Source of the DNA: Kineococcus sp. NBC_00420
GTDB lineage: Bacteria > Actinomycetota > Actinomycetes > Actinomycetales > Kineococcaceae
Direction: 5' to 3'
Length of the DNA stretch: 64,000 bases
Assembly (NCBI RefSeq): GCF_036021035.1
Contig: NZ_CP107930.1
Location: 3,038,001-3,102,000, forward strand
Shown: positions 3,265-18,414 of the stretch, in pieces
Layout: every line of letters starts with the position of its first letter
How positions within the stretch are numbered: the stretch's first letter is position 1
Translations under genes and position numbers: made by a program
Notes under the pieces: model-generated
Seen by the model: only the letters and a program-made list of their open reading frames with translations
Told to the model about the DNA's origin: nothing
Databases searched by the model: none

Positions 3265-5838
3265 ATGACTGCGACCACAGACACCCCCCAGCTCACCGAC
3301 CTGCTGCCGGCCCCGGGCGACGACGACCCCGACCTCGTCTACGAGGCGTTCTCGACGTGGGTGACCTCACGCGGCATCGAGCTGTACGCCGCGCAGCAGG
3401 AGGCGCTCATCGAGGTGGTCGCCGGCTCCAACGTCGTGCTCGCCACCCCGACCGGTTCCGGCAAGTCCCTCGTCGCCGCCGGGGCCCACGCCGCCGCGCT
3501 GAGCGCCGGGATCCGGTCCTTCTACACCGCGCCGCTCAAGGCCCTCGTGAGCGAGAAGTTCTTCTCCCTCGTCGAGGTCTTCGGCGCCGAACGCGTCGGG
3601 ATGATGACGGGCGACGCCTCGGTGAACCCCGGCGCACCGATCATCTGCTGCACCGCCGAGATCCTCGCCAACGTCGCGCTGCGCTCCGGAGCTTTCGCCG
3701 ACGTCGGCCAGGTCGTCATGGACGAGTTCCACTTCTACGCCGACCCGGACCGCGGCTGGGCCTGGCAGGTCCCGATCGTCGAGCTCCCGCAGGTGCAGTT
3801 CCTGCTCATGTCGGCGACGCTGGGCGACACCACGGCCCTGCGCGAGGACCTGACCCGGCGGACCGGGCGGCCCACCGCCAGCGTCACCTCGGTGGAACGG
3901 CCCGTCCCGCTGCACTACTCCTACGCGACGACCCCGCTGCAGGAGACCGTCGAGGAACTCCTGCACACCGACCGGGCCCCCGTCTACGTCGTGCACTCCA
4001 CCCAGGCCGCCGCCGTGGAGCAGGCGCAGTCGCTGACCAGCGCGAAGATCGCCACCCGCGAGCAGCGCGACGCCATCGCCGACGCCATCGGCGGGTTCCG
4101 CTTCGCCGCCGGCTTCGGCAAGGTCCTCAACCGGCTGCTGCGGATGGGCGTCGGCGTCCACCACGCCGGGATGCTGCCGAAGTACCGGCGCCTCGTCGAG
4201 ACCCTCGCCCAGGCCGGGCTCCTCAAGGTCATCTGCGGCACCGACACCCTCGGCGTCGGCATCAACGTCCCCATCCGCACCGTCCTCTTCGGGGGGCTGA
4301 CCAAGTTCGACGGCCGCCGCAACCGCCACTACCGCGTCCGGGAGTTCCACCAGATCGCCGGCCGGGCCGGGCGGGCCGGGTTCGACACCGCGGGCACCGT
4401 CGTCGTCCAGGCTCCCGAGCACGAGGTCGAGAACGCCCGTCGCGTCGCCCGCGCCGGTGACGACCCCAAGAAGCTCAAGCGCGTCCAGCGGGTCAAGGCG
4501 CCCGAGGGGTTCATCTCCTGGTCGCAGGCGACCATGGACAAGCTCGTCGCCGGTGAACCCGAACAGCTGACGTCGCACTTCCGGGTCACCACGTCGATGC
4601 TGCTGAACGTCCTGCAGCGCCCGGGGAACCCCGTCGAGGCCATGCGGCACCTGCTGCTGGACAACCACGAACCCCGCAAGAACCAGATCAAGCACGTCCG
4701 GCGCGCCGTCGAACTCGCCCGCGCCCTGCTCGACGCCGGGATCATCGAGACGCTGCCCGAACCCCTCGCCGACGGACGTCAGGTCCGCCTCGTGGGCGAC
4801 CTGCAGCTCGACTTCGCGCTCAACCAGCCGCTGTCGCCGTACGCGCTGGCCGTCATCGACGAACTCCTCGACCCCGAGTCCCTCACCTACGCCCTCGACG
4901 TCGTCTCCGTCATCGAGGCGACCCTCGACGAACCCATGAAGATCCTGCTCGCCCAGCGCTCCAAGGCCAAGGGGGAGGCGGTGCAACGGATGAAGGCCGA
5001 CGGCATCGAGTACGAGGAACGCATGGAACTCCTCGAGGACGTCGAGTGGCCGCAGCCGCTGGCCGAGGAACTGCGCGGCGCCTACGAGACCTACCGCACC
5101 GGGAACCCCTGGGTCGGCGACTACGAGGTGAAACCCAAGTCCGTCGTCCGCGACATGTACGAACGCGCGATGACCTTCGGGGACTACGTCCAGTACTACC
5201 AGCTGGCCCGCTCCGAGGGTCTCGTCCTGCGCTACCTCTCCGACGCCTACAAGGCCCTCAAGCAGACCGTCCCCGACGACGCCCGCACCGAGGAACTCAT
5301 CGACCTCGTCGAGTGGCTCGGGGAGGTCGTGCGCCAGACCGACTCCTCGTTGCTGGCGGAGTGGGAGGCGCTGCGCGACGGCGTCGACCCGGCCGACGTC
5401 GAGAACGTCCCCCACAACGGCGCGGCACCGCAGGAGGAGGAGACCCCGCCCGTCACCGCGAACTCCCGCGCCTTCCGCGTCCTGGTGCGCAACGCGATGT
5501 TCCGGTTCGTCGAACTCTGCGCCCTCGACCGGCCCGCCGCGCTCGCGGAACTCGAGGGGTCCCCCGACGAGGGCACCTGGGGCGACCAGCTCGACGCGTA
5601 CTACGACGACCACGACACCATCGGCACCGGCCCCGACGCCCGCGGTCCGCACCTGCTGCAGGTCGACGACGGTTCCGGGCCGGACGCGAAGGGCTCGAAG
5701 CGGAACTGGTACGTGCGTCAGGTCCTCGAGGACCCGGCGGGTGACCGGGACTGGGGGATCGTCGCCGAGGTCGACCTCGACGCCTCCGACGAGGCCGGGG
5801 CCGCCGTGCTGAAGGTCGCGGGTCTCCTGCGACTCTGA
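3265..5838 (+). CDS. DEAD/DEAH-box helicase with C-terminal DUF3516
   Basis: An 857-residue SF2 helicase. Walker A is ATPTGSGKS near residue 60, motif II is DEFH near 153, motif III is SATLG, and motif VI is QIAGRAGRAGF near 370. The remaining ~450 residues match the DUF3516 extension found in actinobacterial Ski2/Mtr4-like helicases. An ATP-driven RNA or DNA unwinding role is expected. The ATG follows a weak GACGAT box by nine bases, with no strong ribosome site. The GH114 gene starts ten bases after its stop. A long antisense frame across this gene (3367-5907) is a codon-bias shadow. Confidence 0.85.
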   Translation: MTATTDTPQLTDLLPAPGDDDPDLVYEAFSTWVTSRGIELYAAQQEALIEVVAGSNVVLATPTGSGKSLVAAGAHAAALSAGIRSFYTAPLKALVSEKFFSLVEVFGAERVGMMTGDASVNPGAPIICCTAEILANVALRSGAFADVGQVVMDEFHFYADPDRGWAWQVPIVELPQVQFLLMSATLGDTTALREDLTRRTGRPTASVTSVERPVPLHYSYATTPLQETVEELLHTDRAPVYVVHSTQAAAVEQAQSLTSAKIATREQRDAIADAIGGFRFAAGFGKVLNRLLRMGVGVHHAGMLPKYRRLVETLAQAGLLKVICGTDTLGVGINVPIRTVLFGGLTKFDGRRNRHYRVREFHQIAGRAGRAGFDTAGTVVVQAPEHEVENARRVARAGDDPKKLKRVQRVKAPEGFISWSQATMDKLVAGEPEQLTSHFRVTTSMLLNVLQRPGNPVEAMRHLLLDNHEPRKNQIKHVRRAVELARALLDAGIIETLPEPLADGRQVRLVGDLQLDFALNQPLSPYALAVIDELLDPESLTYALDVVSVIEATLDEPMKILLAQRSKAKGEAVQRMKADGIEYEERMELLEDVEWPQPLAEELRGAYETYRTGNPWVGDYEVKPKSVVRDMYERAMTFGDYVQYYQLARSEGLVLRYLSDAYKALKQTVPDDARTEELIDLVEWLGEVVRQTDSSLLAEWEALRDGVDPADVENVPHNGAAPQEEETPPVTANSRAFRVLVRNAMFRFVELCALDRPAALAELEGSPDEGTWGDQLDAYYDDHDTIGTGPDARGPHLLQVDDGSGPDAKGSKRNWYVRQVLEDPAGDRDWGIVAEVDLDASDEAGAAVLKVAGLLRL

Positions 5839-5848
5839 CGCGACCCCC

Positions 5849-6679
5849 GTGCGACGTCTCACCACACCCCTCGCGACGCTCGGGCTGTGCGCGGCCCTGC
5901 TCGTCACCGGTGGGTCCGGGACGTCCGGTACATCCGGTACCGCTGCCCCGCAACGGCTCCCGGCGAACGGACGCTTCGACTACCAGATCGGCGGTGCCTA
6001 CACCCCCGACGCCTCCGTGGCGATCGTCGACCGCGACCGGTCCGCGGGGCCCGCCGGGGGGACGTACGACATCTGCTACGTCAACGCGTTCCAGACCCAA
6101 CCCGCGGAGGATGCGTTCTGGACGGGGTCGCACCCGGACCTGCTGCTGCGCGACGAGGACGGCGGCCTCGTGGAGGACCCGGACTGGCCAGGCGAGTTCT
6201 TCCTGGACGTCTCCACCGCCGGGAAGCGGGCCGACGTCGCGGAGATCGTCGGCGGCTGGATCGACGGTTGCCGCGACGACGGTTTCGAGGCCGTCGAACC
6301 CGACAACCTCGACACGTGGACGCGGTCGGGCGGCAGGCTGACCGAGGCGGACGCCGTCGCGTACGCGACCCTGCTGGCGGACCGTGCCCACGCCGACGGT
6401 CTCGCGATCGCGCAGAAGAACGCGGGGAGCCTCGGATCGACCGGCCGGGATTCGGTGGGGTTCGACTTCGCGATCGCCGAGGAGTGCCAGAACTACTCCG
6501 AGTGCGACGACTACACCGACGTCTACGGGGACGACGTCCTCGAGGTCGAGTACACGGACAACCCCCGTACCGCGTACACGACGGCCTGCGCGGTGCAGGG
6601 CAGGAGGATCTCGGTCCTCCTGCGCGACCGCGACGTCGTGCCGCGCGGCGACGAGGCGTACCACGACGAGACCTGCTAG
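5849..6679 (+). CDS. Secreted GH114 endo-alpha-1,4-polygalactosaminidase-like enzyme
   Basis: A 276-residue secreted protein. A basic start (MRRLTTP) and a hydrophobic stretch form a signal peptide, followed by a short GTSGTSGT linker. The mature part shows the GH114 (TIM-barrel) pattern: the Gln/Asp-rich strand FDYQIGGAY, ICYVNAF, then the acidic EAVEPDNLDTW and the later FAIAEECQNYSECDDY with acid and Cys residues. GH114 enzymes cut alpha-1,4-linked galactosamine polymers such as fungal galactosaminogalactan. It lies 4 kb from an AgaS-type galactosamine operon, which supports that substrate. Family call good, substrate inferred. Confidence 0.7.
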   Translation: MRRLTTPLATLGLCAALLVTGGSGTSGTSGTAAPQRLPANGRFDYQIGGAYTPDASVAIVDRDRSAGPAGGTYDICYVNAFQTQPAEDAFWTGSHPDLLLRDEDGGLVEDPDWPGEFFLDVSTAGKRADVAEIVGGWIDGCRDDGFEAVEPDNLDTWTRSGGRLTEADAVAYATLLADRAHADGLAIAQKNAGSLGSTGRDSVGFDFAIAEECQNYSECDDYTDVYGDDVLEVEYTDNPRTAYTTACAVQGRRISVLLRDRDVVPRGDEAYHDETC

Positions 6680-6868
6680 GCGGGTCTCGCGGATCGTGAG
6701 TTCGGCTCGGGGGACCAGGATCCCGTGTGAACCCCGCATCCCGCCCGGCTGTCCGGAGCGGAGCCGAGGGGATCGGATCTCCCTCCGCGACAGATTCCCG
6801 TCGGAGGCCGGCGGACCTCGACCCCGATGCCCGCCGGCCCAGTACCCACCGTGTCGGTGCGCGCTCGT

Positions 6869-8002
6869 TCAGCGTCCGGGGTGCAGCCCCAGCACACCGG
6901 GGCTGGGTGCACCCTGGACCTCACCGAAGTACAACGAGAACGTCTGACGCCAGCGCTCCACCTCGGCCCGGTCGGCCATGAAACGGGGGAACCCGTCCAG
7001 GTGGGCGTCACGGTTCTGCCAGATCGGGGCGAGGTCTCCCGCGGGTTTCACGTCGGTTCGTACCGACCAGCCGTTGAAGGAGTTCTGCTGCACCGGGACC
7101 GAGAGCTGCCAGTTCAGGTACAGCTTCGCGGCAGCGGGGTGTGCCGCGCGCTTCAGCAGGGCGGCGCGCTGCCCCCAGGCCATGAAGGGGTGGCCGGCCG
7201 GGGTGACCCACCGGACGCCCGGGGCCAGCGGACCGGTGAGGGAACCGGCACCGGCGATGCCGATCGTCTTCCTGCCCGAGGCCACGGCCTCGACGGGGGT
7301 GTTCGTTCCGCGGGCGAACTGCGGGTTCTGCGCGGCGAGCCGGCCCACCCAGTCCCAGCCGTAGGTCTCGGCGTAGAGCTTGTAGAGGTACAGCGCGGCG
7401 TCGTCGTCGTTGGGGTAGGAGGACGCGATCGCGCCGCGCCAGCGCGGGTCGACCAGGTCGCGTGGGGTGGCGGGCGCGGTCGCACCCAGGGAGACCTGGT
7501 GCATGTAGCTGAAGGCGTAGACCGCGACGGCGATCCACGCACCGTCCTCATCGCGGAACGCGGGGTGCAGGGCGCCGAAACCCGCGGGCTTGTACGGCTG
7601 CAGGACGCCCTGCTGCTTCCAGCGGGTGAAGTCCTGCAACGTCTGGAGCTGGACGACGTCGGCGACCAGGGAGCGGGTGGCCAGCTGGTTGTCGACCCGG
7701 ACGTCGTGGTACTTGCTGTAGTCCACGATCATCTTCAGGTCGATGGCCGGGAACTGCGCCGTGAAGGCGGTCTTGGCGGCGTCCTGCTGGTCGGGGGTGT
7801 CACCGCCGGCGTAGACGACGAGTTCACCGCCCTCGCTGCGGGCCGCCGCGTACAACGCGTCCAGCGATCTGCTCTCCTCCCTGACCCGCCGCGAACCGGT
7901 GGTGCTCGCGGACGCGGTGGGCGCGGTCATCGCGCCCAGTGCGGAGGCACCGAGAACAGCGCCGCCGGCCTTGAGGAGTCCGCGTCGATCGATCTGGCTC
8001 AT
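6869..8002 (-). CDS. Tat-exported ABC substrate-binding protein, iron/Fe3+-type fold (orphan)
   Basis: A 377-residue type-II periplasmic binding protein. The start at 8002 gives a twin-arginine signal (DRRGLLKAGGAVLG) and an AXA-like cleavage site; a longer open frame reaches 8407 but has no signal logic. Features such as LVVYAGGDTPDQQ, LVDPRWRGAIASSYPN and a C-terminal Trp/Tyr-rich part fit the Fe3+/thiamine/spermidine-like group. No permease or ATPase lies next to it, so it either serves a distant transporter or acts as a receptor. Its ligand cannot be read from sequence. A promoter with an overlapping palindrome lies at 8217-8247. Confidence 0.7.
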   Translation of the reverse strand: MSQIDRRGLLKAGGAVLGASALGAMTAPTASASTTGSRRVREESRSLDALYAAARSEGGELVVYAGGDTPDQQDAAKTAFTAQFPAIDLKMIVDYSKYHDVRVDNQLATRSLVADVVQLQTLQDFTRWKQQGVLQPYKPAGFGALHPAFRDEDGAWIAVAVYAFSYMHQVSLGATAPATPRDLVDPRWRGAIASSYPNDDDAALYLYKLYAETYGWDWVGRLAAQNPQFARGTNTPVEAVASGRKTIGIAGAGSLTGPLAPGVRWVTPAGHPFMAWGQRAALLKRAAHPAAAKLYLNWQLSVPVQQNSFNGWSVRTDVKPAGDLAPIWQNRDAHLDGFPRFMADRAEVERWRQTFSLYFGEVQGAPSPGVLGLHPGR

Positions 8003-8216
8003 GGAGAACCCCTGTGGGTGAGTGGGACGTGGCGGACCGGGCAGGTCCGACCGGGTTCCCGGCCGGGGACGGAAGAAGAGTGCCGGGCCGGGGCGGTGCT
8101 GATCGAGTGGTGCGGATCGAGTGGTGTCGGTGTCGCGCCGAACCCCGTCCTCGATCGTCGCGGGGTGGTGTGGGAAGGCGTGAATCCGCCTCCCCGGATG
8201 GTGCAGCGACAAGTTC
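8003..8216 (-). other. Long 5' leader of the orphan binding-protein gene
   Basis: About 210 bases lie between the likely promoter and the start codon. They hold a two-unit tandem repeat (GATCGAGTGGTG at 8101-8112 and 8115-8126) and some GC-rich hairpin potential. I find no TPP, cobalamin, or other riboswitch core. Confidence 0.4.
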
Positions 8217-8247
8217 AGCGTAGGCATCTTTACTTTAAGCGTCAAGT
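8217..8247 (-). promoter_or_regulatory. Promoter of the orphan binding-protein gene with overlapping palindrome
   Basis: Read on the minus strand, TTGACG (8240-8245) is followed after 17 bases by TACGCT (8217-8222), a good housekeeping-sigma promoter. The -35 box lies inside ACTTTAAGCGTCAAGT (8232-8247), with ACTT/AAGT ends and partial inner symmetry. This resembles a MarR operator, and a MarR gene lies next door at 8494-9015. Regulation is inferred. The AT-rich patch stands out from the GC-rich surroundings. Confidence 0.55.
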
Positions 8248-8493
8248 CATTCGTGCCGGGGATCCGCTGTCTCGACGGGGTAGGGACCACCACGTGGTTT
8301 CGGGACGACGACCGCGAATCCCGCGATCGGGCAACGGGATCCGGTCCCGGAAACGGTCGTCCCGGATCGCGCGGGCGCTCCGTCGGCAAGGGGTCGGACG
8401 GTTTCACCCGACGACCCGACCGCGACGCCTCGGGCGGGTTCGGACCCGGTCGCGCGGATCACGCCGCGTTCGAGGAACTGCTGACGGTGGCGG
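8248..8493. other. Gene-free stretch, nothing recognised
   Basis: GC-rich sequence between the binding-protein promoter and the MarR stop codon. Open frames here lack coding logic or are antisense extensions. No clear terminator or RNA was seen. Confidence 0.4.
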
Positions 8494-9015
8494 TCAGGCT
8501 CCGTCGGGGCGGTTCGCGCGCGACGCGGACCCGAAGGCCTCCGCGGGCAGCTCGACTCCCAGACCGCTCTCGATGCGGACACAGGCGTCCTTGAGGTATC
8601 GGGCCTGGGTCTTCGTCAACCGGTCGAAGACGGCCTGGCGCACGGTCGCGACGTGCCCGGGGGCCGAGACCACCACCTTCTCCCACCCCTGCTCGCTCAA
8701 GGTGGCCAGGGTGGTCCTCCCGTCCGCGGGGTCGGGACGCCTGCTGACGTACCCCTGGCGTTGCAGACGGGAGACCACGTGGGACAACCGTGAGAGCGAG
8801 CCGTTGGACAACGCCGCGAGTTCGCTCATGCGCCGGGTCCGGTCGGGAGACTCCGAGAGCACGGCCATGACGAAGTACTCGAAGTGGCTGAGCCCGGCAT
8901 CACGCTGCAGCTGCGCATCCAGGGCGTTGGGCAGGGCGGTGAGCAGTACCGTCAGGGCCAGCCACACCTGACGCTCCTGCTCGTCGAGCCAGCGCGTCTC
9001 CTCAGCGTCGCCCAC
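8494..9015 (-). CDS. MarR-family transcriptional regulator
   Basis: A 173-residue winged-helix protein. The core runs from HFEYFVMAVLSESPDR through LAALSNGSLSRLSHVVSRL (recognition helix) to the wing RRPDPADGRTTLATLSEQG, the MarR DPxDxR signature. MarR proteins bind palindromes as dimers and release on binding small phenolic or similar ligands. The GTG start at 9015 lies exactly six bases after TAAGCT (9022-9027 on the minus strand), so the mRNA is probably leaderless. Its likely target is the palindrome at 8232-8247. Confidence 0.85.
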   Translation of the reverse strand: MGDAEETRWLDEQERQVWLALTVLLTALPNALDAQLQRDAGLSHFEYFVMAVLSESPDRTRRMSELAALSNGSLSRLSHVVSRLQRQGYVSRRPDPADGRTTLATLSEQGWEKVVVSAPGHVATVRQAVFDRLTKTQARYLKDACVRIESGLGVELPAEAFGSASRANRPDGA

Positions 9016-9147
9016 GTCCTCAGCTTACGTGCACGCGAACCGGGGGTGTGGCCGACAACACGCGATGGGTGAGCTGCTGCTGCGGAGCGGGACCCGGCGG
9101 ATGCGCCGACGTCCCGTGGGCCGGCGGCGGACCGATGGTCCAGGACG

Positions 9148-9999
9148 CTAGACCCCGTCCTGGACCGTGACGACGTGGACGCGGGTTCCGAGGGTCCGGA
9201 TCCGCTGGAGTTCCTCGGCGGGGGCGGCGCTGTCGGTGACGAGGTCGCCGACGCTCTCGAGCCCGGCGACCTTGGCCAGGGTGATCCGTCCGATCTTGGA
9301 GGAGTCCGCGACGACGACCGTCCGCTGGGCGTGACGGATCATGGCCGCGTTCGTCCGCGCCTCGGTCTCGTCGTGCGTCGTGATCCCGCCCTCGGCGCTC
9401 ACCCCGTCCACACCGAGGATCGCCATGCCCACGTTGATGGAGGCGAAGGAGTTCTCGGCGAGCGCCCCCACCAGCTCGAAGGAGTTCGCGCGGATCAGGC
9501 CACCGGTCATCATCACCCGCAGGTTCGGCCGGGACCCGATCTCGGTGGCCGTCGTCAGCGAGTTCGTGACGATCGTCAGGTCGGTGCGGAAGATCAGCGC
9601 CCGCGCGACGCCCGCGGCCGTCGTCCCGCCCCCGATGGCGATCGCGAACGGCCCCTCGGGCAGGAAGGTGGCGGCGCGGCGGGCGATGAGTTGCTTGACC
9701 TGGTGCGATTGCCCCGCGCGCAACCGCACCGGCAGTTCCAGCGCCGGGGCGAGGACCCGCGCGCCGCCGTGCGTCCGCGACAGCAGCCCTTGTCCTTCGA
9801 GGTCGGCGAGGTCGCGGCGGACGGTCGCGACCGACACGCCGAGTTCGGTGACGAGGTCCTGCAGGCTCACGTCACCGCGTTCGTTGAGCACGCCGAGGAT
9901 CGCCACCAGCCGGTCGGCACGTTTGCCGGAACCCGCGCGCGGGAGGGCCTCCGAGCCGCCGAGGGCGTGGCCACCGGGCATCTCCACCGCACCAATCAC
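9148..9999 (-). CDS. DeoR/GlpR/AgaR-family repressor of the adjacent sugar operon
   Basis: A 283-residue protein. The N-terminal HTH (about 26-80) has RADRLVAILGVLNERGDVS and VATVRRDLADLEGQGLLSRTHGG, the DeoR signature. The C-terminal sensor domain has IAIGGGTTAAGVARAL, TNSLTTATEI and GVDGVSAEGGITTHDETEA, which binds a sugar phosphate. It is divergent from the GH4-to-aldolase operon, so it most likely represses it until a phosphorylated amino sugar or ketose appears. GTG 9999, GTG 9987 and ATG 9981 are all possible starts; none has an ideal ribosome site. Confidence 0.85.
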   Translation of the reverse strand: MIGAVEMPGGHALGGSEALPRAGSGKRADRLVAILGVLNERGDVSLQDLVTELGVSVATVRRDLADLEGQGLLSRTHGGARVLAPALELPVRLRAGQSHQVKQLIARRAATFLPEGPFAIAIGGGTTAAGVARALIFRTDLTIVTNSLTTATEIGSRPNLRVMMTGGLIRANSFELVGALAENSFASINVGMAILGVDGVSAEGGITTHDETEARTNAAMIRHAQRTVVVADSSKIGRITLAKVAGLESVGDLVTDSAAPAEELQRIRTLGTRVHVVTVQDGV

Positions 10000-10018
10000 T
10001 CGAACCGATCAACCAGAA

Positions 10019-10033
10019 TGAGCGTTTCGCTCA
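10019..10033. promoter_or_regulatory. Palindromic operator between the DeoR gene and the GH4 operon
   Basis: TGAGCG-TTT-CGCTCA is a perfect inverted repeat with six-base arms. It contains the GCGAAACGC/TTTCG core common in DeoR-family sites and lies in the 74-base divergent spacer, about 40 bases from the GH4 start. An AT-rich AGAATATT follows. It is the best candidate site for the DeoR-type repressor. Confidence 0.55.
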
Positions 10034-10073
10034 GAATATTGCGTCCATCGCGCAGTCGGAACACCATCCTGGC

Positions 10074-11390
10074 ATGACACGAGTCACCTTCGTCGGGGCC
10101 GGGAGCGTCGAGTTCACCCGCCAGCTGGTGGGGGACCTCCTGAGGTTCGACGACCTCGGCCCGCTCGACCTGCGGCTCTTCGACATCGACGAGCGCCGCC
10201 TCGCCGTGGCCGAGGGCACCGCCCGGCAGGTCGGCGAACGCCTGAACCGCCCCCTGACGACCACCGCGACCACCGACCGGCGCCGCGCCCTCGCCGACGC
10301 CGACTTCGTCGTCGACATGGTGCAGATCGGCGGCATCGAGGCCACCCGCCACGACCTGGAGATCCCGGCCCGCTACGGGTTGCGCCAGACGATCGGCGAC
10401 ACCACCGGGGTGGGCGGGGTCTTCCGCGCGCTGCGCACGTTCCCCTTCCTCACCGCCCTCACCGCGGACATCCGCGACGTGGCGCCGGACGCGGTCTTCC
10501 TGAACTACACCAACCCGATGGCGATGAACGTCTGGTGGACCAGCCTCGTCGCCCCGGAACTCACCACCCTGGGGTTGTGCCACAGCGTCTACTGGACCGC
10601 CCACGACCTCGCGGAGCTCGTCGGGTTGTCCGTCGAGCAGACCAGGTTCCGGGCGGCCGGCGTCAACCACCAGGCGTGGTTGCTGGAGTGGACCCACGGG
10701 GGTCGTGACCTCTACCCGGTGCTGCGCGAGCGCATCGCCGCCGACCCGGAACTGCTGCGCCGCGTCCGCGTCGAGGTCTTCCGCCGGATCGGCTACTACC
10801 CGACCGAGACGAGCGAGCACTCCTCGGAGTACCTGCCGTGGTTCCTCCGCGACCAGGAGCAGGTCGAGAGGTTCCGGCTGCGGCCGATGGAGTACCTGGA
10901 GATCTCCGAGAACAACGTCCGTGAGTTCCACGCGGCCGAACGCGCCCTCGCCGCGGGTGAACCGCTGGCGCTCGAGGAGGAGGCGGCCGAGTACGCGCCG
11001 CAGGTCATCCACTCCCTCGTCACCGGCACCGAACGCGAGATCCACGCCAACGTCGTCAACCGGGGCCTGATCGACAACCTGCCCGCCGGGTGCGTCGTCG
11101 AGGTGCCGACCATCGTGGGCGCCGGCGGGATCTCCCCGGTCCCGATGGGTTCCCTGCCGGTGCAGGCCGCAGCGGTGAACCGCCCCTACGTCTCGGTCGC
11201 CGAGCTCACGATCGAGGCCGCCCGGACCGGGGACCCGCGCCTCGTGCGCCAGGCGGTGCTCGTGGACCCCAACGCGAGCTCGACGCTCACGCCCGAGCGG
11301 ATCTGGGCGCTGTGCAACGACCTCGTCGCCGCCCACGGCGACCTGCTGCCGCCAGAACTGCGCGTGCAGCTGCCGGTCGACGCCCTGTAG
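10074..11390 (+). CDS. GH4-family NAD- and metal-dependent alpha-galactosidase-like glycosidase
   Basis: A 438-residue cytoplasmic enzyme. The Rossmann start VTFVGAGSVEFTRQLV binds NAD; NYTNPMAMN, GLCHSVYWT and GVNHQAW supply the conserved Asn, Cys and His that hold the substrate and Mn2+. GH4 enzymes cleave by an oxidation-elimination mechanism. The GLCHS version is typical of alpha-galactosidases (MelA-like) rather than 6-phospho-glucosidases. As first gene of an operon with AgaS and tagatose-pathway enzymes, an alpha-galactosaminidase role on imported oligosaccharides is plausible but unproven. Confidence 0.8.
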   Translation: MTRVTFVGAGSVEFTRQLVGDLLRFDDLGPLDLRLFDIDERRLAVAEGTARQVGERLNRPLTTTATTDRRRALADADFVVDMVQIGGIEATRHDLEIPARYGLRQTIGDTTGVGGVFRALRTFPFLTALTADIRDVAPDAVFLNYTNPMAMNVWWTSLVAPELTTLGLCHSVYWTAHDLAELVGLSVEQTRFRAAGVNHQAWLLEWTHGGRDLYPVLRERIAADPELLRRVRVEVFRRIGYYPTETSEHSSEYLPWFLRDQEQVERFRLRPMEYLEISENNVREFHAAERALAAGEPLALEEEAAEYAPQVIHSLVTGTEREIHANVVNRGLIDNLPAGCVVEVPTIVGAGGISPVPMGSLPVQAAAVNRPYVSVAELTIEAARTGDPRLVRQAVLVDPNASSTLTPERIWALCNDLVAAHGDLLPPELRVQLPVDAL

Positions 11391-11415
11391 TCCAGACCCC
11401 CGAGAGGAGTTCCCG

Positions 11416-12708
11416 GTGCACGTCCCACGACTCGCCGCCGCCCTCACCCTCGTCGCGCTCGTCGCGACGGGGTGCGGGACGAAACCCGTCACCACGCTCG
11501 ACCCCTCCGCCCAGGTCCACCTGACGATGTGGTCGGGGCAGAGCGACGAGGCCGAGCGGGTGCTGGAGCGTCTCGCCGCGGAGTTCGAGCAGCAGCACCC
11601 CAACGTCAGCATCGACGTCACGCCCGGGGCCTCCTCCACCGAGGAACTGCTGCAGAAGCTCGCCGCCTCGTTCGCGGGCAACGACTCCCCGGACATCTCC
11701 TACACGTTCGGGTCGTGGGCGAGCCAGCTGGAACGCTCGAACCGGACCCTCGACATCACCTCCGTGGTGCAGGGCCCCGGGGTGGACTGGGAGGACTTCA
11801 CCTCGGCGGCGCGGGCGACGGCGCAGCCGACCGGCCACCGCACCATCGGGTTCCCCGCCGTCGTCGACAACATCGCCCTCCTCTACAACACGACCCTCTT
11901 CGACCGGGCCGGCGTCGCGTACCCCACGCCCGACTGGACCTGGCAGGACTTCCGGGCCGCGGCGAAGCAGCTCACGAACCCCGGCGACCACGTCTACGGG
12001 TACGGGTACTCCGTCTCGGGGAGCGAGGAGACGACGTGGCAGTTGTGGCCGCACCTGTGGCAGAACGGCGGCGAGATCCTGGACGCCACCGGGCAGGAGG
12101 CGGCCTTCGACTCCCGGGCCGGGATCGACGCCCTCACCTTCCTGCGCGGGATGGCCGTCGACGACCGGAGCGTCTACCTCGACCAGACGGACACCAAGTT
12201 CGCCCAGCTGTTCGAGAGCGACCGCATCGCCATGATCACCTCCGGTCCCTGGGAACTGTCGGCGCTCAAGACCGCCGGAACCTCCTACGGCGTCGTGCAG
12301 CTCCCGGGGACGGACGGCGACCACCAGACGGTCTCCGGCCCCGACCTGTGGACCCTGTTCGACAACGACGACGTCAACCGCGCCCACTGGGCGACGCAGT
12401 TCACCGAGTGGCTGACCTCGGCCGAGCAGGACGAGCAGTTCAACGTGGCTCTCGGCAACCTCCCGCTGCGGGCCAGTGAGGCCACCAGCGAGGCGTTCCT
12501 GACCGCCTCCGCCGAACTCCCCGGGCTCGACGTGATGCAGGCCAACGCCGCGAACGCGAAGAAGCCCCGCCCGACCGTCCCCGGCTACAACGGCCTCTCG
12601 GAGGCCGTCGGGAGCGCCACCGCCCACGTGCTGCAGGGCGAAGGGTCGCCGCAGGGCGCCCTCGCCGACGCCGCCACCGCCGCCGACAAGGCACTGCGCC
12701 AGAGCTGA
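11416..12708 (+). CDS. Sugar ABC transporter substrate-binding lipoprotein
   Basis: A 430-residue family-1 extracellular solute-binding protein. The signal ends in LVALVATGCGT, a lipobox with the lipid-modified Cys near residue 17. VHLTMWSGQSDEAERVLERL, FEQQHPNVSIDV and YTFGSWASQLERS are typical of carbohydrate uptake (CUT1) binding proteins. It would capture the oligosaccharide outside the membrane and deliver it to the two permeases that follow nine bases later. The ligand is unknown; the operon suggests galactosamine-containing sugars. Confidence 0.85.
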   Translation: MHVPRLAAALTLVALVATGCGTKPVTTLDPSAQVHLTMWSGQSDEAERVLERLAAEFEQQHPNVSIDVTPGASSTEELLQKLAASFAGNDSPDISYTFGSWASQLERSNRTLDITSVVQGPGVDWEDFTSAARATAQPTGHRTIGFPAVVDNIALLYNTTLFDRAGVAYPTPDWTWQDFRAAAKQLTNPGDHVYGYGYSVSGSEETTWQLWPHLWQNGGEILDATGQEAAFDSRAGIDALTFLRGMAVDDRSVYLDQTDTKFAQLFESDRIAMITSGPWELSALKTAGTSYGVVQLPGTDGDHQTVSGPDLWTLFDNDDVNRAHWATQFTEWLTSAEQDEQFNVALGNLPLRASEATSEAFLTASAELPGLDVMQANAANAKKPRPTVPGYNGLSEAVGSATAHVLQGEGSPQGALADAATAADKALRQS

Positions 12709-12717
12709 GGACGTGAC

Positions 12718-13656
12718 GTGACGACCGTTGACCTTCGAGAGTCGCAGCGCCGGGGGACCTCGGGAGCGGCTGCCCCCCGGCCCCGCCGTGCCGTGGGGGA
12801 GGCACTGGCCGGGTGGGGTTTCGTCGCCCCGGCCCTGATCGTGGTCGGAGGGCTCACCCTCTTCCCGGGGATCTGGGCCCTCGTGCTGTCCTTCCGCACG
12901 TGGGACGGGTTCAGCCCGCCGAGGGGGGTGGGGATCCAGAACTACCGGGACCTCGCCGTCGACCCCGCGCTCGGCGGTGCCGCGCTGCACACCGCCCTCT
13001 ACACGGTCCTCTTCGTGCCGGCGTCGGTCCTGCTGGGACTGTTCCTGGCCGTCGCGCTGAACCGTCGGATCCGGTTCATCGGCCTGTACCGCACCGCGGT
13101 GTTCGTGCCCTTCGTCGCCTCCGCCGCCGCGACGGGCATCCTCACGACCTACCTCTTCAGCGCGCAGTTCGGGCTGGTCAACAACGTCCTGCGCGTCCTG
13201 CACCTGCCCCAGCAGGGCTGGCTGGAGGACGGCCACCAGGCCATGGTGGTCATCACCATCATGTCGCTGTGGGGGCAGGCCGCCTTCACCACGGTCATCT
13301 ACCTCGCTGCGCTGCAGGACATCCCCGGCGACACCATCGAGGCCGCCCGGATGGACGGCGCGAACTCCCGGCAGGTCTTCTGGCGCGTCGTGTGGCCGCA
13401 ACTCGGGGCGGTGACGTCGTTCGTCGCGGTCTACCAGACCCTGGAGGCCGTCCAGCTGTTCGACCTCGTCTACGCCACCACGCGCGGCGGGCCGCTCGAC
13501 GCCACCCAGACGATCGTCTACTACGTCTGGCACCTCGCGTTCCAGCGGCTGCAGTTCGGCTACGGCTCGGCCGTCGCCTACGCGTTGTTCTTCGCCACCC
13601 TGGTCGTGACGATCGTCGTCACCATCACCCAGCGCCGCGCCGGGAGGAATCCGTGA
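12718..13656 (+). CDS. Sugar ABC transporter permease (MalF-like)
   Basis: A 312-residue membrane protein with six predicted helices. The cytoplasmic EAA loop, EAARMDGANSRQVFWRVVWPQL near residue 205 onward, is where the ATPase docks. The N-terminal tail before the first helix is rich in Arg and Pro. The GTG start is ten bases after the binding-protein stop, and its stop overlaps the next permease by four bases. No ATPase gene is in the operon, as is common in actinobacteria that use one shared MsiK-type ATPase. Confidence 0.85.
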   Translation: MTTVDLRESQRRGTSGAAAPRPRRAVGEALAGWGFVAPALIVVGGLTLFPGIWALVLSFRTWDGFSPPRGVGIQNYRDLAVDPALGGAALHTALYTVLFVPASVLLGLFLAVALNRRIRFIGLYRTAVFVPFVASAAATGILTTYLFSAQFGLVNNVLRVLHLPQQGWLEDGHQAMVVITIMSLWGQAAFTTVIYLAALQDIPGDTIEAARMDGANSRQVFWRVVWPQLGAVTSFVAVYQTLEAVQLFDLVYATTRGGPLDATQTIVYYVWHLAFQRLQFGYGSAVAYALFFATLVVTIVVTITQRRAGRNP

Positions 13657-14525
13657 CGACCGTGACTCCGTCCGCGACCTCGACGTCCACGTCGACCGTG
13701 CCCCGTCGCCGCGGGTTGCCGTTCAGCCCGTGGCACCTGCTGCTGGTGCCGATCTCGGTCCTCTTCCTGCTGCCGTTCCTCGAGATGTTCCTCACCTCCC
13801 TGGAACCTGCGTCGGAGATCAACAAGTTCCCGCCCGCCTTCGTCCCGACGCACTTCACCCTCAGCGGGTACACCCGGTTGTTCGCCGATTCCTCGATCCT
13901 GCGGTGGCTGCTGAACACGGCCGTCGTGTCCGCGTCGGCGACCGTCTCGCACCTGGTGCTCTGCTCGCTGGCCGGCTACGGGTTCGCCCGGCTGCGCTTC
14001 CCGGGCCGGACTTTCGGGTTCCTGGCGATCCTCGCGACCATCATGATCCCCTCGCAGCTGCTCATGATCCCGACCTACGTCATGTTCGCCCGGCTCGGTC
14101 TCGTCGACCACCTCTCGGCCGCGATCGTGCCCTGGCTGGCCTCGGCGTTCGGCATCTTCCTCATGCGCCAGTTCTTCCTGTCGCTGCCGAGCGAGCTGGA
14201 GGAGGCGGGCAGGATCGACGGCTGCTCGCGCCTGCAGGTGTTCTTCCGCATCGTGCTGCCGCTGGCCCGGCCCGCGCTGGCGACGTTGGCGATCTTCACC
14301 CTGCTCGGGTCCTGGAACGACCTCGTGTGGCCCCTGGTGGCCATCAACGACGAGCACGACTTCACGCTGCAGCTGGGGCTGACGAACTTCCAGGGCGCCC
14401 GCCGGACCGACTGGTCGCTGCTCATGGCCGGCAACGTCGTCGCCACCCTCCCGCTCATGCTGCTCTTCCTCCTGGCCCAGCGGCAGTTCGTCGCGACCAT
14501 GGCCTCGGCCGGGCTGAAAGGCTGA
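13653..14525 (+). CDS. Sugar ABC transporter permease (MalG-like)
   Basis: The second CUT1 permease, 290 residues, six helices, with EAGRIDGCSRLQVFFRIVLPL as its EAA loop. The GTG at 13653 overlaps the upstream TGA (GTGA) and follows GGGAGGA, so it is chosen over the far longer open frame that begins inside the first permease. The N-terminal ~25 residues are Ser/Thr-rich. It forms the transport channel with the previous gene product. Confidence 0.85.
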   Translation: MTTVTPSATSTSTSTVPRRRGLPFSPWHLLLVPISVLFLLPFLEMFLTSLEPASEINKFPPAFVPTHFTLSGYTRLFADSSILRWLLNTAVVSASATVSHLVLCSLAGYGFARLRFPGRTFGFLAILATIMIPSQLLMIPTYVMFARLGLVDHLSAAIVPWLASAFGIFLMRQFFLSLPSELEEAGRIDGCSRLQVFFRIVLPLARPALATLAIFTLLGSWNDLVWPLVAINDEHDFTLQLGLTNFQGARRTDWSLLMAGNVVATLPLMLLFLLAQRQFVATMASAGLKG

Positions 14526-14580
14526 GCCCCGTGCGCACCGAAGCGAGCACCACCCGCACCACCGACCGGAGGTACCTCCC

Positions 14581-15717
14581 GTGAACACCGACGTCGCCGC
14601 TCCCACGAGCGGATCCGCGACCCACCACGAGATCCGGCAGCAGCCGGGCGCGTGGCGCGACCTGGTCACCCTGCTCGCCGGGCACCGGGACGCGCTGGAC
14701 GACTTCCTCGCCCCGGTCCTGGCGCAGGAGAACCTACGCATCGTCCTCACCGGCGCGGGGACCTCCGCCTTCGCCGGTGACATCGCGAGCGCGTCGCTGC
14801 GCCGCCACCTGGGCCGCCGGGTCGACGCCCTCGCCACGACCGACCTCGTCGCCGACCCCTTCGGCCTGCTCGCGGAGGGCGGCCCCGTCCTGCTGGTGTC
14901 CTTCGCGCGGTCCGGGAACAGTCCCGAGAGCGTCGCGGCGACCCGGATCGTGGACGATCTCGCCCCGCGGGCGCACCACCTCGTCATCACCTGCGACGCC
15001 GAGGGGGCCCTGGCCCGGGAGCACCGCGGTGCGGCGAACTCGTTCGTGCTGGTGATGCCGGAGCAGACCAACGACACCGGCTTCGCCATGACGTCGAGCT
15101 TCTCCACGATGCTGCTCGCCGCGCTCCTGGTGTTCCGGGCCGACCAGGCCCGCCACGTCGAGGCCCTGGGCGCCGCCGCGTCGTCGCTGATCGGGCGCAG
15201 CGGACAGGTCGAGGCCCTGCTGGACGCCGACCCCGAACGCGTCGTGTACCTCGGCTCGGGTCCGCTGCAGGGGCTGGCTCAGGAGTCCGCGCTGAAGCTG
15301 CTCGAACTGACGGCGGGGGGAGTGGCGGGTTTCCACGACTCCCCGCTCGGGTTCCGCCACGGCCCGAAGTCGGTGGTCGACGACCGCACCCTCGTCGTCG
15401 TGTACGCCTCCGCCGACCCCTACACCGCCCACTACGACGCCGACATCGTCACCGAACTCCGTCGTGACCGCCCCGCGCAGGTCGTGCACGTCGGCGGGCC
15501 GGACGGTTCTGCGCTGGACCTCGCCCTCCCGCAGCTCGACGGTCTCGACGACGGGTTGCGCAGCGTCGCCCTCGTCGCCTTCGCGCAGCTGCTCGCGCTG
15601 GGTGCGTCCGTCCGCCGCGGCTGCACCCCCGACAACCCCTTCCCGGGCGGCACCGTCAACCGGGTCGTCCAGGGGGTCTCGATCCACGACCTCCCGGGCC
15701 GGAGCGAGCAGCCGTGA
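14581..15717 (+). CDS. agaS: AgaS-type galactosamine-6-phosphate deaminase/isomerase (two SIS domains)
   Basis: A 378-residue double-SIS protein. SIS 1 has LTGAGTSAFAGD and SFARSGNSPES; SIS 2 has VVYLGSGPLQGLAQESALKLLEL and the FRHGPKS box shared by AgaS and the isomerase half of GlmS. No glutaminase domain is present. AgaS converts galactosamine-6-phosphate to tagatose-6-phosphate plus ammonia. The following kinase and class II aldolase supply the next two steps. GAGGTACC precedes the GTG start. The reaction is inferred from family and context, both in good agreement. Confidence 0.75.
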   Translation: MNTDVAAPTSGSATHHEIRQQPGAWRDLVTLLAGHRDALDDFLAPVLAQENLRIVLTGAGTSAFAGDIASASLRRHLGRRVDALATTDLVADPFGLLAEGGPVLLVSFARSGNSPESVAATRIVDDLAPRAHHLVITCDAEGALAREHRGAANSFVLVMPEQTNDTGFAMTSSFSTMLLAALLVFRADQARHVEALGAAASSLIGRSGQVEALLDADPERVVYLGSGPLQGLAQESALKLLELTAGGVAGFHDSPLGFRHGPKSVVDDRTLVVVYASADPYTAHYDADIVTELRRDRPAQVVHVGGPDGSALDLALPQLDGLDDGLRSVALVAFAQLLALGASVRRGCTPDNPFPGGTVNRVVQGVSIHDLPGRSEQP

Positions 15718-16670
15718 CGTACTTCCTCGGCATGGACGGGGGCGGGACGAAGACCGCCTTCGTCCTGCTCGACGGGAACGGGACGGTCGTCGCGGAGGAC
15801 CGGCAACCCTCCAGCTACTACTTCGGGAGCGAGAGCGGGATCGACCTCGTCGAGCAGGTCCTGCGCGCCGGGGTCGGCGCCGTCGTCGCGGCGGCCGGGA
15901 TCCGTGTCGAGGACCTCACCTTCGCGTTCCTGGCGATCCCCGGCTACGGCGAGGCCAGCGCCGACGTCGCCCACCTGGACGCGATGCCCGCCCGGGTCCT
16001 GGGGCACGACCGCTACCTCTGCGGCAACGACATGCTCAGCGGCTGGGCGGGTTCCCTCGCCGGCCGGGACGGCATCAACGTCGTCGCCGGTACCGGATCG
16101 GTGGCCTACGGCGAACGGGGTCACCGCGCCCACCGGACCGGCGGCTGGAGCGAACTCTTCGGCGACGAGGGGTCCGCGTACTGGGTGGCCGTCCAGGGAC
16201 TGAACGCGTTCTCCCGCATGGCCGACGGCCGTGAACCCCGGACGGCGTTGCACGGCGCGGTCCGGGAGGCGCTGGAGGTCCGGGACGACGGCGACGACCT
16301 CGACGTCATCGGTGTCGTCGTGGACCGCTGGCAGGGCGACCGCAGCCGGATCGCGGGCCTCGCCCGCGTCGTCACCGCGACGGCCGCCGCGGGCGACGCC
16401 CGGGCCCTGGGGATCGTGCGCGCCGCGGCCGCAGAACTGGCCGCCCTGGTGACGACGACGGCGACCGCCCTGGGCCACGGTTCGCAGGACGAGGTGGCGG
16501 TGTCCTGGTCCGGGGGACTGTTCAACGCCCCCGTGGTGCGGTCGGAGTTCGAGGAGGCTTTGCAGCACAGCCCGTTCCGGCTGGAACTCGTGACGCCGCA
16601 GCACGGTCCGGAACTCGGTGGTGCCCTCTACGCCGTCCGGGCGGCCCGGGCCCGCGGGGTGGTCGTGTGA
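15714..16670 (+). CDS. BadF/BadG/BcrA-type sugar kinase (N-acetylglucosamine kinase-like)
   Basis: A 318-residue ASKHA-fold kinase. The phosphate-1 loop is GMDGGGTKTAFVLLDGNG at the N-terminus; GYGEASADVAHL and NVVAGTGSVAYGERG are the adenosine/phosphate-2 regions. The family includes GlcNAc and glucosamine kinases. Here the likely substrate is the free amino sugar released by the GH4 enzyme, giving galactosamine-6-phosphate for AgaS. It overlaps AgaS and the next gene by four bases each, so the set is translationally coupled. Confidence 0.7.
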   Translation: MTYFLGMDGGGTKTAFVLLDGNGTVVAEDRQPSSYYFGSESGIDLVEQVLRAGVGAVVAAAGIRVEDLTFAFLAIPGYGEASADVAHLDAMPARVLGHDRYLCGNDMLSGWAGSLAGRDGINVVAGTGSVAYGERGHRAHRTGGWSELFGDEGSAYWVAVQGLNAFSRMADGREPRTALHGAVREALEVRDDGDDLDVIGVVVDRWQGDRSRIAGLARVVTATAAAGDARALGIVRAAAAELAALVTTTATALGHGSQDEVAVSWSGGLFNAPVVRSEFEEALQHSPFRLELVTPQHGPELGGALYAVRAARARGVVV

Positions 16671-17575
16671 TCGTCGTCCTCACCCCCAACCCGGCGGTCG
16701 ACGTGACGTACCGCGTCGCGGAACAGCGGGTCGGAACCACCCAGCGGGTGCTGGAGGTCTCCCGTCGCCCCGGGGGCAAGGGCGTCAACGTGGCCCGCGT
16801 CCTGGGCGGCGAGGGGGTTCCCGCCCGGTGCGTGCTGCCCCTGGGCGGGGCGGCCGGGACGTGGGTGCAGGAGGCGCTGCGCGACCTGGGGCTGGAACCC
16901 ACGACCGTTCCCCTGGCCGGTGAGACCCGCACGACGGTGACCGTCGTCGACGACGTGGCCCACCCGACGATGTTCGGCGAACCCGGCCCCGCGGTGACCC
17001 CCGCGGAGTGGGCCGCCGTGCGGGACGCCCTCGCCGGGGCGTTGCGCGGGGCGGCGGCCTTCGTCGTCGCGGGGTCGCTCCCGCTCGGCAGCGACCCCGG
17101 CCTGGTCGGCGACTGGGTGCGCACGGCCCGCGACGCCGGGGTCCTGACCGTCGCCGACCTGTCCGGTCCGGCCCTGCTGGCGGCCGCCGACGCCGGGGCC
17201 TCCGTCTGCAAGCCCAACGTCGAGGAACTCCTCGGCGCGACCGGTGCCGGTTCCGAGGCGGAGGGCGCCGCGGACCTGCTGGCCCGGGGGGCCGGTGCGG
17301 TGGTGGTCTCCCGCGGGGTCCACGGGATCGCCGCCCACACCCGCGACGGGGTGTGCGAGGTTTCCGCCGTCCCGGGCGTCAGCGGGAACGCCACCGGCGC
17401 CGGGGACGCCGCGACGGCCGGTCTCGTCCTCGCCCTCACCGGCGGTTCCCCGCTGCCCGACGCCCTGCGCCGGGCCGCCGCGTTCGGCGCCGCCGCCGTC
17501 CTGCGTCCGGTCGCAGGTGAGATCGACCGGGCCGCCGCCGCCCGTTTCCTCGACACCACCGGGAGTCCCGCATGA
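16667..17575 (+). CDS. PfkB-family kinase, tagatose-6-phosphate/1-phosphofructokinase type
   Basis: A 302-residue ribokinase-fold kinase. NPAVDVTYRV at the start and RRPGGKGVNVARVLGGEG are the hallmarks of LacC/FruK-type phosphosugar kinases; GNATGAGDAATAGLVLAL is the C-terminal anion-hole and catalytic Asp motif. It would turn tagatose-6-phosphate into tagatose-1,6-bisphosphate with ATP. Four-base overlaps on both sides. A fructose-1-phosphate substrate cannot be excluded by sequence alone; the AgaS neighbour favours tagatose-6-phosphate. Confidence 0.75.
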   Translation: MIVVLTPNPAVDVTYRVAEQRVGTTQRVLEVSRRPGGKGVNVARVLGGEGVPARCVLPLGGAAGTWVQEALRDLGLEPTTVPLAGETRTTVTVVDDVAHPTMFGEPGPAVTPAEWAAVRDALAGALRGAAAFVVAGSLPLGSDPGLVGDWVRTARDAGVLTVADLSGPALLAAADAGASVCKPNVEELLGATGAGSEAEGAADLLARGAGAVVVSRGVHGIAAHTRDGVCEVSAVPGVSGNATGAGDAATAGLVLALTGGSPLPDALRRAAAFGAAAVLRPVAGEIDRAAAARFLDTTGSPA

Positions 17576-18414
17576 GCACTCGTCCCCCCTTCGTGGAACT
17601 CCTCGACGCCGCCCGTGCGGCCGGTCGTGGAGTCGGGGCCTTCAACGTCGTCCTGCTCGAGCACGCCGAGGCCATGGCCGCCGGTGCCGCGCGCGCCGGT
17701 CTGCCGGTCGTGCTGCAGATCAGCGAGAACTGCATCACGTACCACGGTGGTCTGGAACCCCTCACCGTCGCCACCCAGGCCATCGCCCGCGCCGTCGACG
17801 TCGAGGTCCTGGTGCACCTGGACCACGTGGAGGACCCGGAGCTGGCCCGGCGCGGCATCGACCTCGGCGTCGACTCGATCATGTACGACGGGTCGAAACT
17901 GCCTTACGCGGAGAACGTCGCCGCGACCCGGGCCCTGGCCGAGGAGGCCCACGCCGTGGGGATCGCGCTGGAGGCCGAACTCGGCGAGGTCGGCGGCAAG
18001 GACGGCGTCCACGCCCCGGGTGCGCGCACCGACCCCGACGAGGCCGCGGAGTTCGTCGCCGCCACGGGGGTCGACGCCCTGGCGGTGGCCGTGGGGACGT
18101 CGCACGCGATGCAGACCCGCGTCGCCCGCGTCGACCGCGACCTCATCGCCCGGCTCGCCGCGAGCGTCCCCGTCCCCCTGGTGCTGCACGGCTCGTCGGG
18201 GTTGTCCGACGAGGAACTCCGCGCCGCCGTCGAGGTCGGCATGACGAAGGTCAACATCTCGACGCACCTCAACGGGGTGTTCACCCGCGCCGTGCGCGCT
18301 GTGCTGGCCGACCGGCCCGACCTCACCGACCCGCGGAAGTACGTCGCCGCGGGCCGCGCCGCGCTGGAGGACGAGACCGAGCGTCTGCTGCGGCTGCTCG
18401 CGGGGACCGCGTGA
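17572..18414 (+). CDS. Class II ketose-bisphosphate aldolase (tagatose/fructose-bisphosphate)
   Basis: A 280-residue zinc-dependent aldolase. HLDHVEDPELARRG carries a Zn His, YDGSKLPYAENVAATR the substrate loop, AVAVGTSHAMQ another Zn His, and VLHGSSGLSDEELR with VNISTHL the last Zn site and phosphate loop. It splits tagatose-1,6-bisphosphate into glyceraldehyde-3-phosphate and dihydroxyacetone phosphate. It is the last gene of the operon. A small GAAA-capped hairpin (18421-18434) follows its stop and may help termination. Confidence 0.8.
   Translation: MSTRPPFVELLDAARAAGRGVGAFNVVLLEHAEAMAAGAARAGLPVVLQISENCITYHGGLEPLTVATQAIARAVDVEVLVHLDHVEDPELARRGIDLGVDSIMYDGSKLPYAENVAATRALAEEAHAVGIALEAELGEVGGKDGVHAPGARTDPDEAAEFVAATGVDALAVAVGTSHAMQTRVARVDRDLIARLAASVPVPLVLHGSSGLSDEELRAAVEVGMTKVNISTHLNGVFTRAVRAVLADRPDLTDPRKYVAAGRAALEDETERLLRLLAGTA

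Follow-up and report, generated by a model that had tools for sequence, protein, structure and literature searches.

Organisation of the locus

The DNA analysed here (the window) is a stretch of 64,000 nucleotides from the 5.43 Mb single-contig genome of Kineococcus sp. NBC_00420. It contains a gene for a secreted enzyme of glycoside hydrolase (GH) family 114 and, 3.4 kb further on, the start of an operon that begins with a GH4 gene and is divergent from the gene of an AgaR-like repressor. On balance we favour the view that the locus serves the catabolism of alpha-1,4-linked galactosamine polymers, for example fungal galactosaminogalactan (GAG) or bacterial Pel. All of the genes that the initial annotation had named are present by domain search.

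The GH114 gene (5849–6679, plus strand) encodes a protein with a signal peptide, recognized by eye, and a domain that matches PF03537 at 187 bits (cut-off 27), placing it in the family. Its closest solved structure is that of the endo-alpha-1,4-galactosaminidase Ega3 of Aspergillus (6oj1, E 2.8e-19); a GH191-like chain (9ep6, 3e-5) and, weakly, TM1410 (0.19 to 0.3) are also matched. D152, the Asp of an EPDN motif, and E211, the leading Glu of an AEEC motif, line up with the motifs of Ega3, presumably as the partners of its own motif Asp and Glu, and are invariant across 29 aligned GH114 sequences. The two enzymes share family, motif residues and a secretion signal. They differ in that the window enzyme is bacterial and tied to a putatively catabolic operon, whereas Ega3 is tied to polymer synthesis. 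A figure legend in PMC12054363 assigns the Asp of the GH114 motifs as nucleophile and the Glu as acid/base, and the accessible text of that paper has GH191 defined by TM1410 and an environmental enzyme. The same text describes the polygalactosaminidase of Pseudomonas sp. 881 as a GH114 enzyme purified from its source and that of Streptomyces griseus as lacking a sequence, links neither to a catabolic operon, and reports that the bacterial GH114 candidates tried gave no soluble, well-folded protein. These two enzymes resemble the window system in being instances of bacterial galactosaminidase activity. By homology the window GH114 would be an endo-cleaver of alpha-1,4-galactosamine chains.

The operon (10074–18414, plus strand) consists of eight genes that overlap or nearly touch. 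The GH4 gene (10074–11390) encodes an NAD-dependent alpha-glycosidase that matches both PF02056 and PF11975 and is a candidate exo-alpha-galactosaminidase. It is followed by the sugar-binding protein (11416–12708; SBP_bac_1, SBP_bac_8) and two permeases (12718–13656 and 13653–14525; BPD_transp_1) of an ATP-binding cassette (ABC) importer; an open reading frame at 13730 was rejected as the second permease, being in the wrong frame. No ABC ATPase is encoded among the eight genes. The remaining four encode an AgaS-type SIS deaminase/isomerase (14581–15717), predicted to convert galactosamine-6-phosphate to tagatose-6-phosphate, a BadF/BcrAD-type amino-sugar kinase (15714–16670), a PfkB-type phosphosugar kinase (16667–17575), putatively acting on tagatose-6-phosphate, and a class II aldolase (17572–18414), whose substrate would be tagatose-1,6-bisphosphate. 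The DeoR-family repressor gene (9148–9999, minus strand; DeoRC and HTH_DeoR domains) is separated from GH4 by a gap of 75 bp that contains an operator palindrome, AAnCGMTCA-N7-TGAKCG, at 10000–10030.

Between GH114 and the operon lie three minus-strand genes: an orphan SBP_bac_6 solute-binding protein (6869–8002), a MarR regulator (8494–9015) and the DeoR repressor. A transcript shared by GH114 and the operon is therefore ruled out, and GH114 is not an operon member in the window. The orphan solute-binding protein is nearest to 2-aminoethylphosphonate-binding models and has no permease gene among its called neighbours; the MarR gene precedes it. Upstream of GH114, a DUF3516 helicase gene ends 10 bp before its start. 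An Rfam search of positions 1–26000 returned zero matches.

Linkage of GH114 to the GH4 clade and a shared operator

A scan of 84,980 species genomes for the GH4 enzyme gave 67 loci. In 11 of these a tblastn search placed GH114 inside the locus as fetched; six genera are represented, namely Cellulosimicrobium (five loci), Microbacterium (two), Frigoribacterium, Cellulomonas, Actinomyces and Kineosporia (one apiece). GH114 follows GH4 directly in two loci (L062, L067), stands after GH4 and the aldolase in Cellulosimicrobium, and completes the order AgaS-BadF-GH114 in Kineosporia-type genomes (L070, L113); the copy in Cellulomonas belongs to another class, with 27% identity to that of the window. 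The number of genomes expected by chance to have GH114 within 10 kb is 0.26 of 47, and the probability of six or more is 3e-7, this and all other significance values being computed without correction for kinship. On a GH114 tree built after removal of near-copies, the operonic state requires at least four changes. Wherever it lies in the genome, GH114 is present in 47 of the 67 GH4-clade genomes (36 of 50 and 11 of 17). In an evenly drawn sample of 297 genomes of the order, 96 have GH114, 16 have the GH4 clade and 14 have the two together; GH114 thus occurs in 14 of the 16 genomes with GH4 compared with 82 of the 281 without it (Fisher p 4e-6, or 1e-5 minus the window).

Across the 67 loci a deaminase is found in 60, a sugar kinase in 57 and an aldolase in 47. 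The deaminase of 48 loci is a SISb protein, which replaces AgaS and BadF and has a ribokinase-like kinase (RbsK) as its usual partner. The AgaS–BadF pair occurs in 11 loci and the SISb–RbsK pair in 44, swapped within otherwise similar operons, and both deaminases are found together only once. This alternation is as expected if the conserved feature is the chemistry. The closest solved structures to SISb are archaeal GlmD-type chains, which likens the sister operons to the archaeal GlmD pathway for chitin and glucosamine. Unlike in that pathway, SISb is tied to genes for GH4, GH114 and the aldolase, and it is absent from the window operon.

The intergenic regions between repressor and GH4 have in common a palindrome of the approximate form AAnCGMTCA-N7-TGAKCRnTT. 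A position weight matrix was derived from 55 such regions, the window's included, that remained of 63 after eight duplicates or near-duplicates had been dropped; GH114 promoters were excluded. With a threshold of 13 bits there is one site in the window, that at 10000–10030, with 35 bits (the next-best place has 7.9), and a search of the whole 5.4 Mb genome at up to two mismatches finds the palindrome at this place only. In addition to its 6-7-6 palindrome the operator includes another perfect inverted repeat, TGAGCGTTTCGCTCA, at 10019–10033, and the repressor may consequently bind several half-sites. Among the fetched loci the palindrome also stands upstream of genes for SISb (37 of 47), an amidohydrolase (31 of 47) and KbaZ (8 of 10), and of none of 10 GH36-like genes. 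It is predicted that the AgaR-like repressor acts on the operon through the site at 10000–10030.

The same palindrome is found at some GH114 genes that lie far from the operon. Eight of 41 such remote genes have it within 400 bp upstream, compared with one of 209 control genes (p 2e-6, the controls being counted as genes and not as independent genomes). Two more fall just short of the threshold, at 12.9 and 12.6 bits, and the sole positive control is divergent from a GH114 gene and shares its site. Six operonic copies were set aside from this comparison and five strong additional copies (in G015, G016, G032 and G058) were left out; three of the 50 loci (L110, L153, L155) had no GH114 called, and three of the 41 genes are from congeners without GH4. 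When 16 GH4-bearing genomes were searched whole with two mismatches allowed, the palindrome occurred at 1 to 11 places and a reversed control pattern at 0 to 2. One genome (G016) has just two palindromes, which precede GH114 and GH4 respectively, and another (G028) has three, which include those of both genes; a third (G015) has two, one before GH114 and the other about 10 kb from GH4, whose own site exceeds two mismatches. These sites place some distant GH114 genes in the regulon on grounds independent of distance. The initial annotation had looked to the co-occurrence of GH114 with such operons in other genomes for its confirmation, and this is borne out by the co-occurrence itself, by operon membership in other genera and by the shared operator.

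Several observations, together with those on enzyme families and acetylation given below, weigh against a dedicated system for galactosamine polymers. No GH114 match is found in 20 of the 67 GH4-clade genomes and no palindrome at 33 of the 41 remote GH114 genes. Of the genomes searched whole, 13 of 16 have no palindrome within two mismatches directly before GH114 (five of them carry GH114 inside the operon), and the reversed control is itself found at one or two places in seven. Upstream of the window GH114 (5300–5900) no operator site reaches even −5 bits, and a hidden strong operator there was rejected, since the whole-genome pattern search gave the one place at 10000–10030. Any direct co-regulation of the window GH114, which has no palindrome and has the helicase gene as its neighbour, is thus hypothetical. 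The interpretation given in the initial annotation is supported in part, as regards the proximity of GH114 to the operon, the link between the two and the fit of the downstream steps, but in the window GH114 is a separate transcription unit without an operator.

Nature of the sugar and alternative readings

Over 377 amino acids AgaS shares 47% identity with its E. coli namesake, and three AgaS-type chains head its solved relatives. The BadF-type kinase matches PF01869 and, below threshold, NagK_SO3507, and has as its best solved relative an N-acetylmuramic acid/N-acetylglucosamine kinase (8zo3). PfkB scores 220.8 bits with TIGR03168 (cut-off 216.4), the tagatose-6-phosphate kinase models remaining below cut-off, and the class II aldolase matches PF01116 at 272 bits and is 38% identical to E. 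coli KbaY. A KbaZ-like gene is present in 9 of the 67 loci (its family being shown for one), with 55–59% identity to the E. coli protein. The likeness of AgaS and the KbaZ of sister loci point to galactosamine as the sugar, and the downstream steps proposed in the initial annotation fit this sugar on the basis of AgaS identity and the solved relatives of AgaS and the kinase. The more exact family models are less favourable, as AgaS reaches 461 bits with TIGR02815 (cut-off 529), the aldolase 218 with GatY (383) and 169.5 with KbaY (542), and the repressor 180.5 with its best NCBIfam model, AgaR (NF040755, cut-off 260). The system is thus similar to E. coli aga/kba in its AgaS, in its KbaY-like aldolase, in the KbaZ of sister loci and in its repressor, which is 34% identical to AgaR. 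It differs in having an ABC importer for oligomers and a cytoplasmic kinase in place of a phosphotransferase system, a glycosidase and an endo-enzyme acting upstream, and no AgaA in the operon.

The GH4 enzyme belongs to its family beyond the domain matches: the GAGS Rossmann NAD motif, C169 and H199, the latter two of which we take to be metal ligands, are invariant in the aligned sequences. Its closest solved structure is LplD. It also passes the NCBIfam model PRK15076, 'alpha-galactosidase' (536 bits, cut-off 486), and is 38% identical to E. coli MelA, with the CHSV motif kept. The main alternative is accordingly that the polymer is a mixed GAG from which an ordinary GH4 alpha-galactosidase removes galactose, while another enzyme frees galactosamine for the path through the kinase and AgaS. 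The GH36-like genes found near GH4 in 9 of the 67 loci agree with this in that the diet may include galactose. Such Melibiase-like genes are seen in L008, L009, L010 and L012–L014, which are loci of Curtobacterium and Frondihabitans (the family having been established for L013), where they are co-directional with the repressor or stand behind AgaS-BadF. Against an ordinary alpha-galactosidase, the deaminase and the sugar kinase are nearly constant companions of GH4, and GH4 and GH114 are the only glycosidases recognized in the clusters common to at least 10 loci, genes for galactose use not having been searched for. Moreover, all 27 clade sequences compared depart from MelA at the positions flanking the motifs, with CHSV followed by Tyr, His or Phe and then Trp, and the second motif reading NHQAW or NHQSW; MelA has Gln-Gly and NHMAF. 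We would guess that these residues beside the conserved motifs set specificity. The clade shares with MelA its family, CHSV and the conserved NH pair, yet it is separate (at least 54% identity to the window GH4 as against 38–42% to MelA, the upper value being the highest among the best five members listed) and is linked to amino-sugar genes, whereas MelA is linked to a melibiose carrier. To our knowledge exo-alpha-galactosaminidase activity has been found in no GH4 enzyme. Such a new activity is likely but unproven for the GH4 clade, and we regard the ordinary alpha-galactosidase as rather improbable.

It is similarly doubtful, though the window GH114 is a separate transcription unit without the palindrome, that the gene lies beside the operon by chance and has another task, such as processing of the cell's own polymer, the operon importing alpha-galactosaminides made by others. 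Three congeners have GH4 about 23, 45 and 59 kb from GH114, and another class of GH114 does sit in clusters with the glycosyltransferase PelF. Of the 18 GH114 genes in the order sample that score above 229 bits, eight have a PelF-type gene at a distance of no more than 10 kb, which holds for no lower-scoring GH114 gene among the matches listed. PelF-type clusters with the higher-scoring class were found at L160:8274-12461 and L111:6655-17197 and in L162, L158, L161 and L163, and one scanned cluster combines PelF and GH114 with Spherulin4, which we take to be GH135. These are probably loci for the synthesis of Pel- or GAG-like polymers. At L111:11148-18553 (genome G011) PelF and GH114 are joined by an Agd3-like deacetylase and by a GH4 that is 54% identical to the window's and, at 482.6 bits, just under the alpha-galactosidase cut-off of 486; this is the one case seen of the GH4 clade beside a galactosamine-polymer synthesis cluster, and it speaks for the galactosamine reading. 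The same segment encodes a protein with both methyl-accepting chemotaxis protein (MCP) and PilZ domains, a hint of control by cyclic di-GMP. The window genome, in contrast, has no match to PelF (PF11997), and its GH114 is therefore not of the synthesis-linked class. On the GH114 tree it falls in a nine-row group (SH-like approximate likelihood-ratio support 90, where 95 is firm) with two operonic Kineosporia copies, four that bear the palindrome (one at 12.9 bits) and two that do not, while the copies of four congeners form a separate group. The window GH114 is thus of the GH4-tied class, although in the smallest firm group that includes it, of 18 rows, nine are neither operonic nor palindrome-bearing.

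Slightly less probable again is that the imported sugar is N-acetylated, as N-acetylgalactosamine (GalNAc) or mixed galactosamine/GalNAc oligomers, and that a deacetylase strips the acetyl group. Pel is described as a galactosamine-GalNAc repeat in the title of PMC9135694. The initial annotation was correct that the locus has no deacetylase; elsewhere in the genome, however, there is one NagA above cut-off, which adjoins a GlmD-like SIS gene. In 42 of the 67 loci (for example L018:1582-2688) there is an amidohydrolase-2 protein with invariant residues resembling metal ligands, and with its upstream palindromes it belongs to the regulon. This gene, which fills a gap in sister loci, was rejected as a NagA; it has no sequence relative among solved structures, its fold is closest to decarboxylase-type amidohydrolases, and a search of the window genome at 1e-5 gave no match. 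A NagA-like gene is near 6 of the 67 loci, the other 61 having no such match. A further GH4 locus outside the 67 (L117:10428-14063) has KbaZ, AgaS and a NagA-like gene consecutively, the last being 48% identical to the NagA of the window genome and scoring 220 bits where the nagA model requires 226. This may be a GalNAc-using version of the system, and it slightly lowered our confidence in unacetylated galactosamine and raised that in an acetylated sugar. With possible deacetylases in some sister loci, the unacetylated state of the substrate is presumptive. For the window, agaS without agaA is the pattern from which a gut-genome study (PMC5583593) infers the use of galactosamine and not of GalNAc.

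Proposed pathway and significance

For the favoured reading, catabolism of alpha-1,4-linked galactosamine polymers, the following scheme may be drawn. The secreted GH114 would cut the polymer chain outside the cell, and the ABC importer would take up the oligomers, from which the cytoplasmic GH4 would remove residues singly as an exo-alpha-galactosaminidase. The galactosamine would be phosphorylated by the BadF-type kinase and deaminated by AgaS to tagatose-6-phosphate, which PfkB would phosphorylate and the aldolase split, the operon being controlled by the AgaR-like repressor at its palindrome. Each enzymatic step, the binding of the repressor and the identity of the substrate are predictions; they are drawn from gene content, sequence relationships, a conserved promoter palindrome and GH114 linkage in other genomes, all of which are observed directly. 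The broader proposal seems to us evenly poised: that actinobacteria have a dedicated regulon for alpha-1,4-polygalactosamine (GAG or Pel), in which a GH4 has evolved into an exo-alpha-galactosaminidase, and that the GH114 enzymes of bacteria comprise a catabolic class, tied to GH4 and the repressor, and a class of the PelF/Spherulin4 type that is concerned with synthesis.

PMC12054363 treats what the endo-galactosaminidase families do in bacteria as an open question and describes the characterized GH114, GH135 and GH166 enzymes as endo-type. Among the titles and abstract openings listed from the open-access literature, neither an exo-enzyme for galactosamine polymers nor a locus of this kind was found. 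The sugar-cutting activity proposed for GH4 is directly assayable. If the proposal is correct, bacterial GH114 would gain a role and a candidate activity would be named for this GH4 clade; orthologues would become available, as would a reporter for GAG and Pel built on the repressor; and it would suggest that soil actinobacteria feed on the biofilm matrix of both fungi and bacteria.

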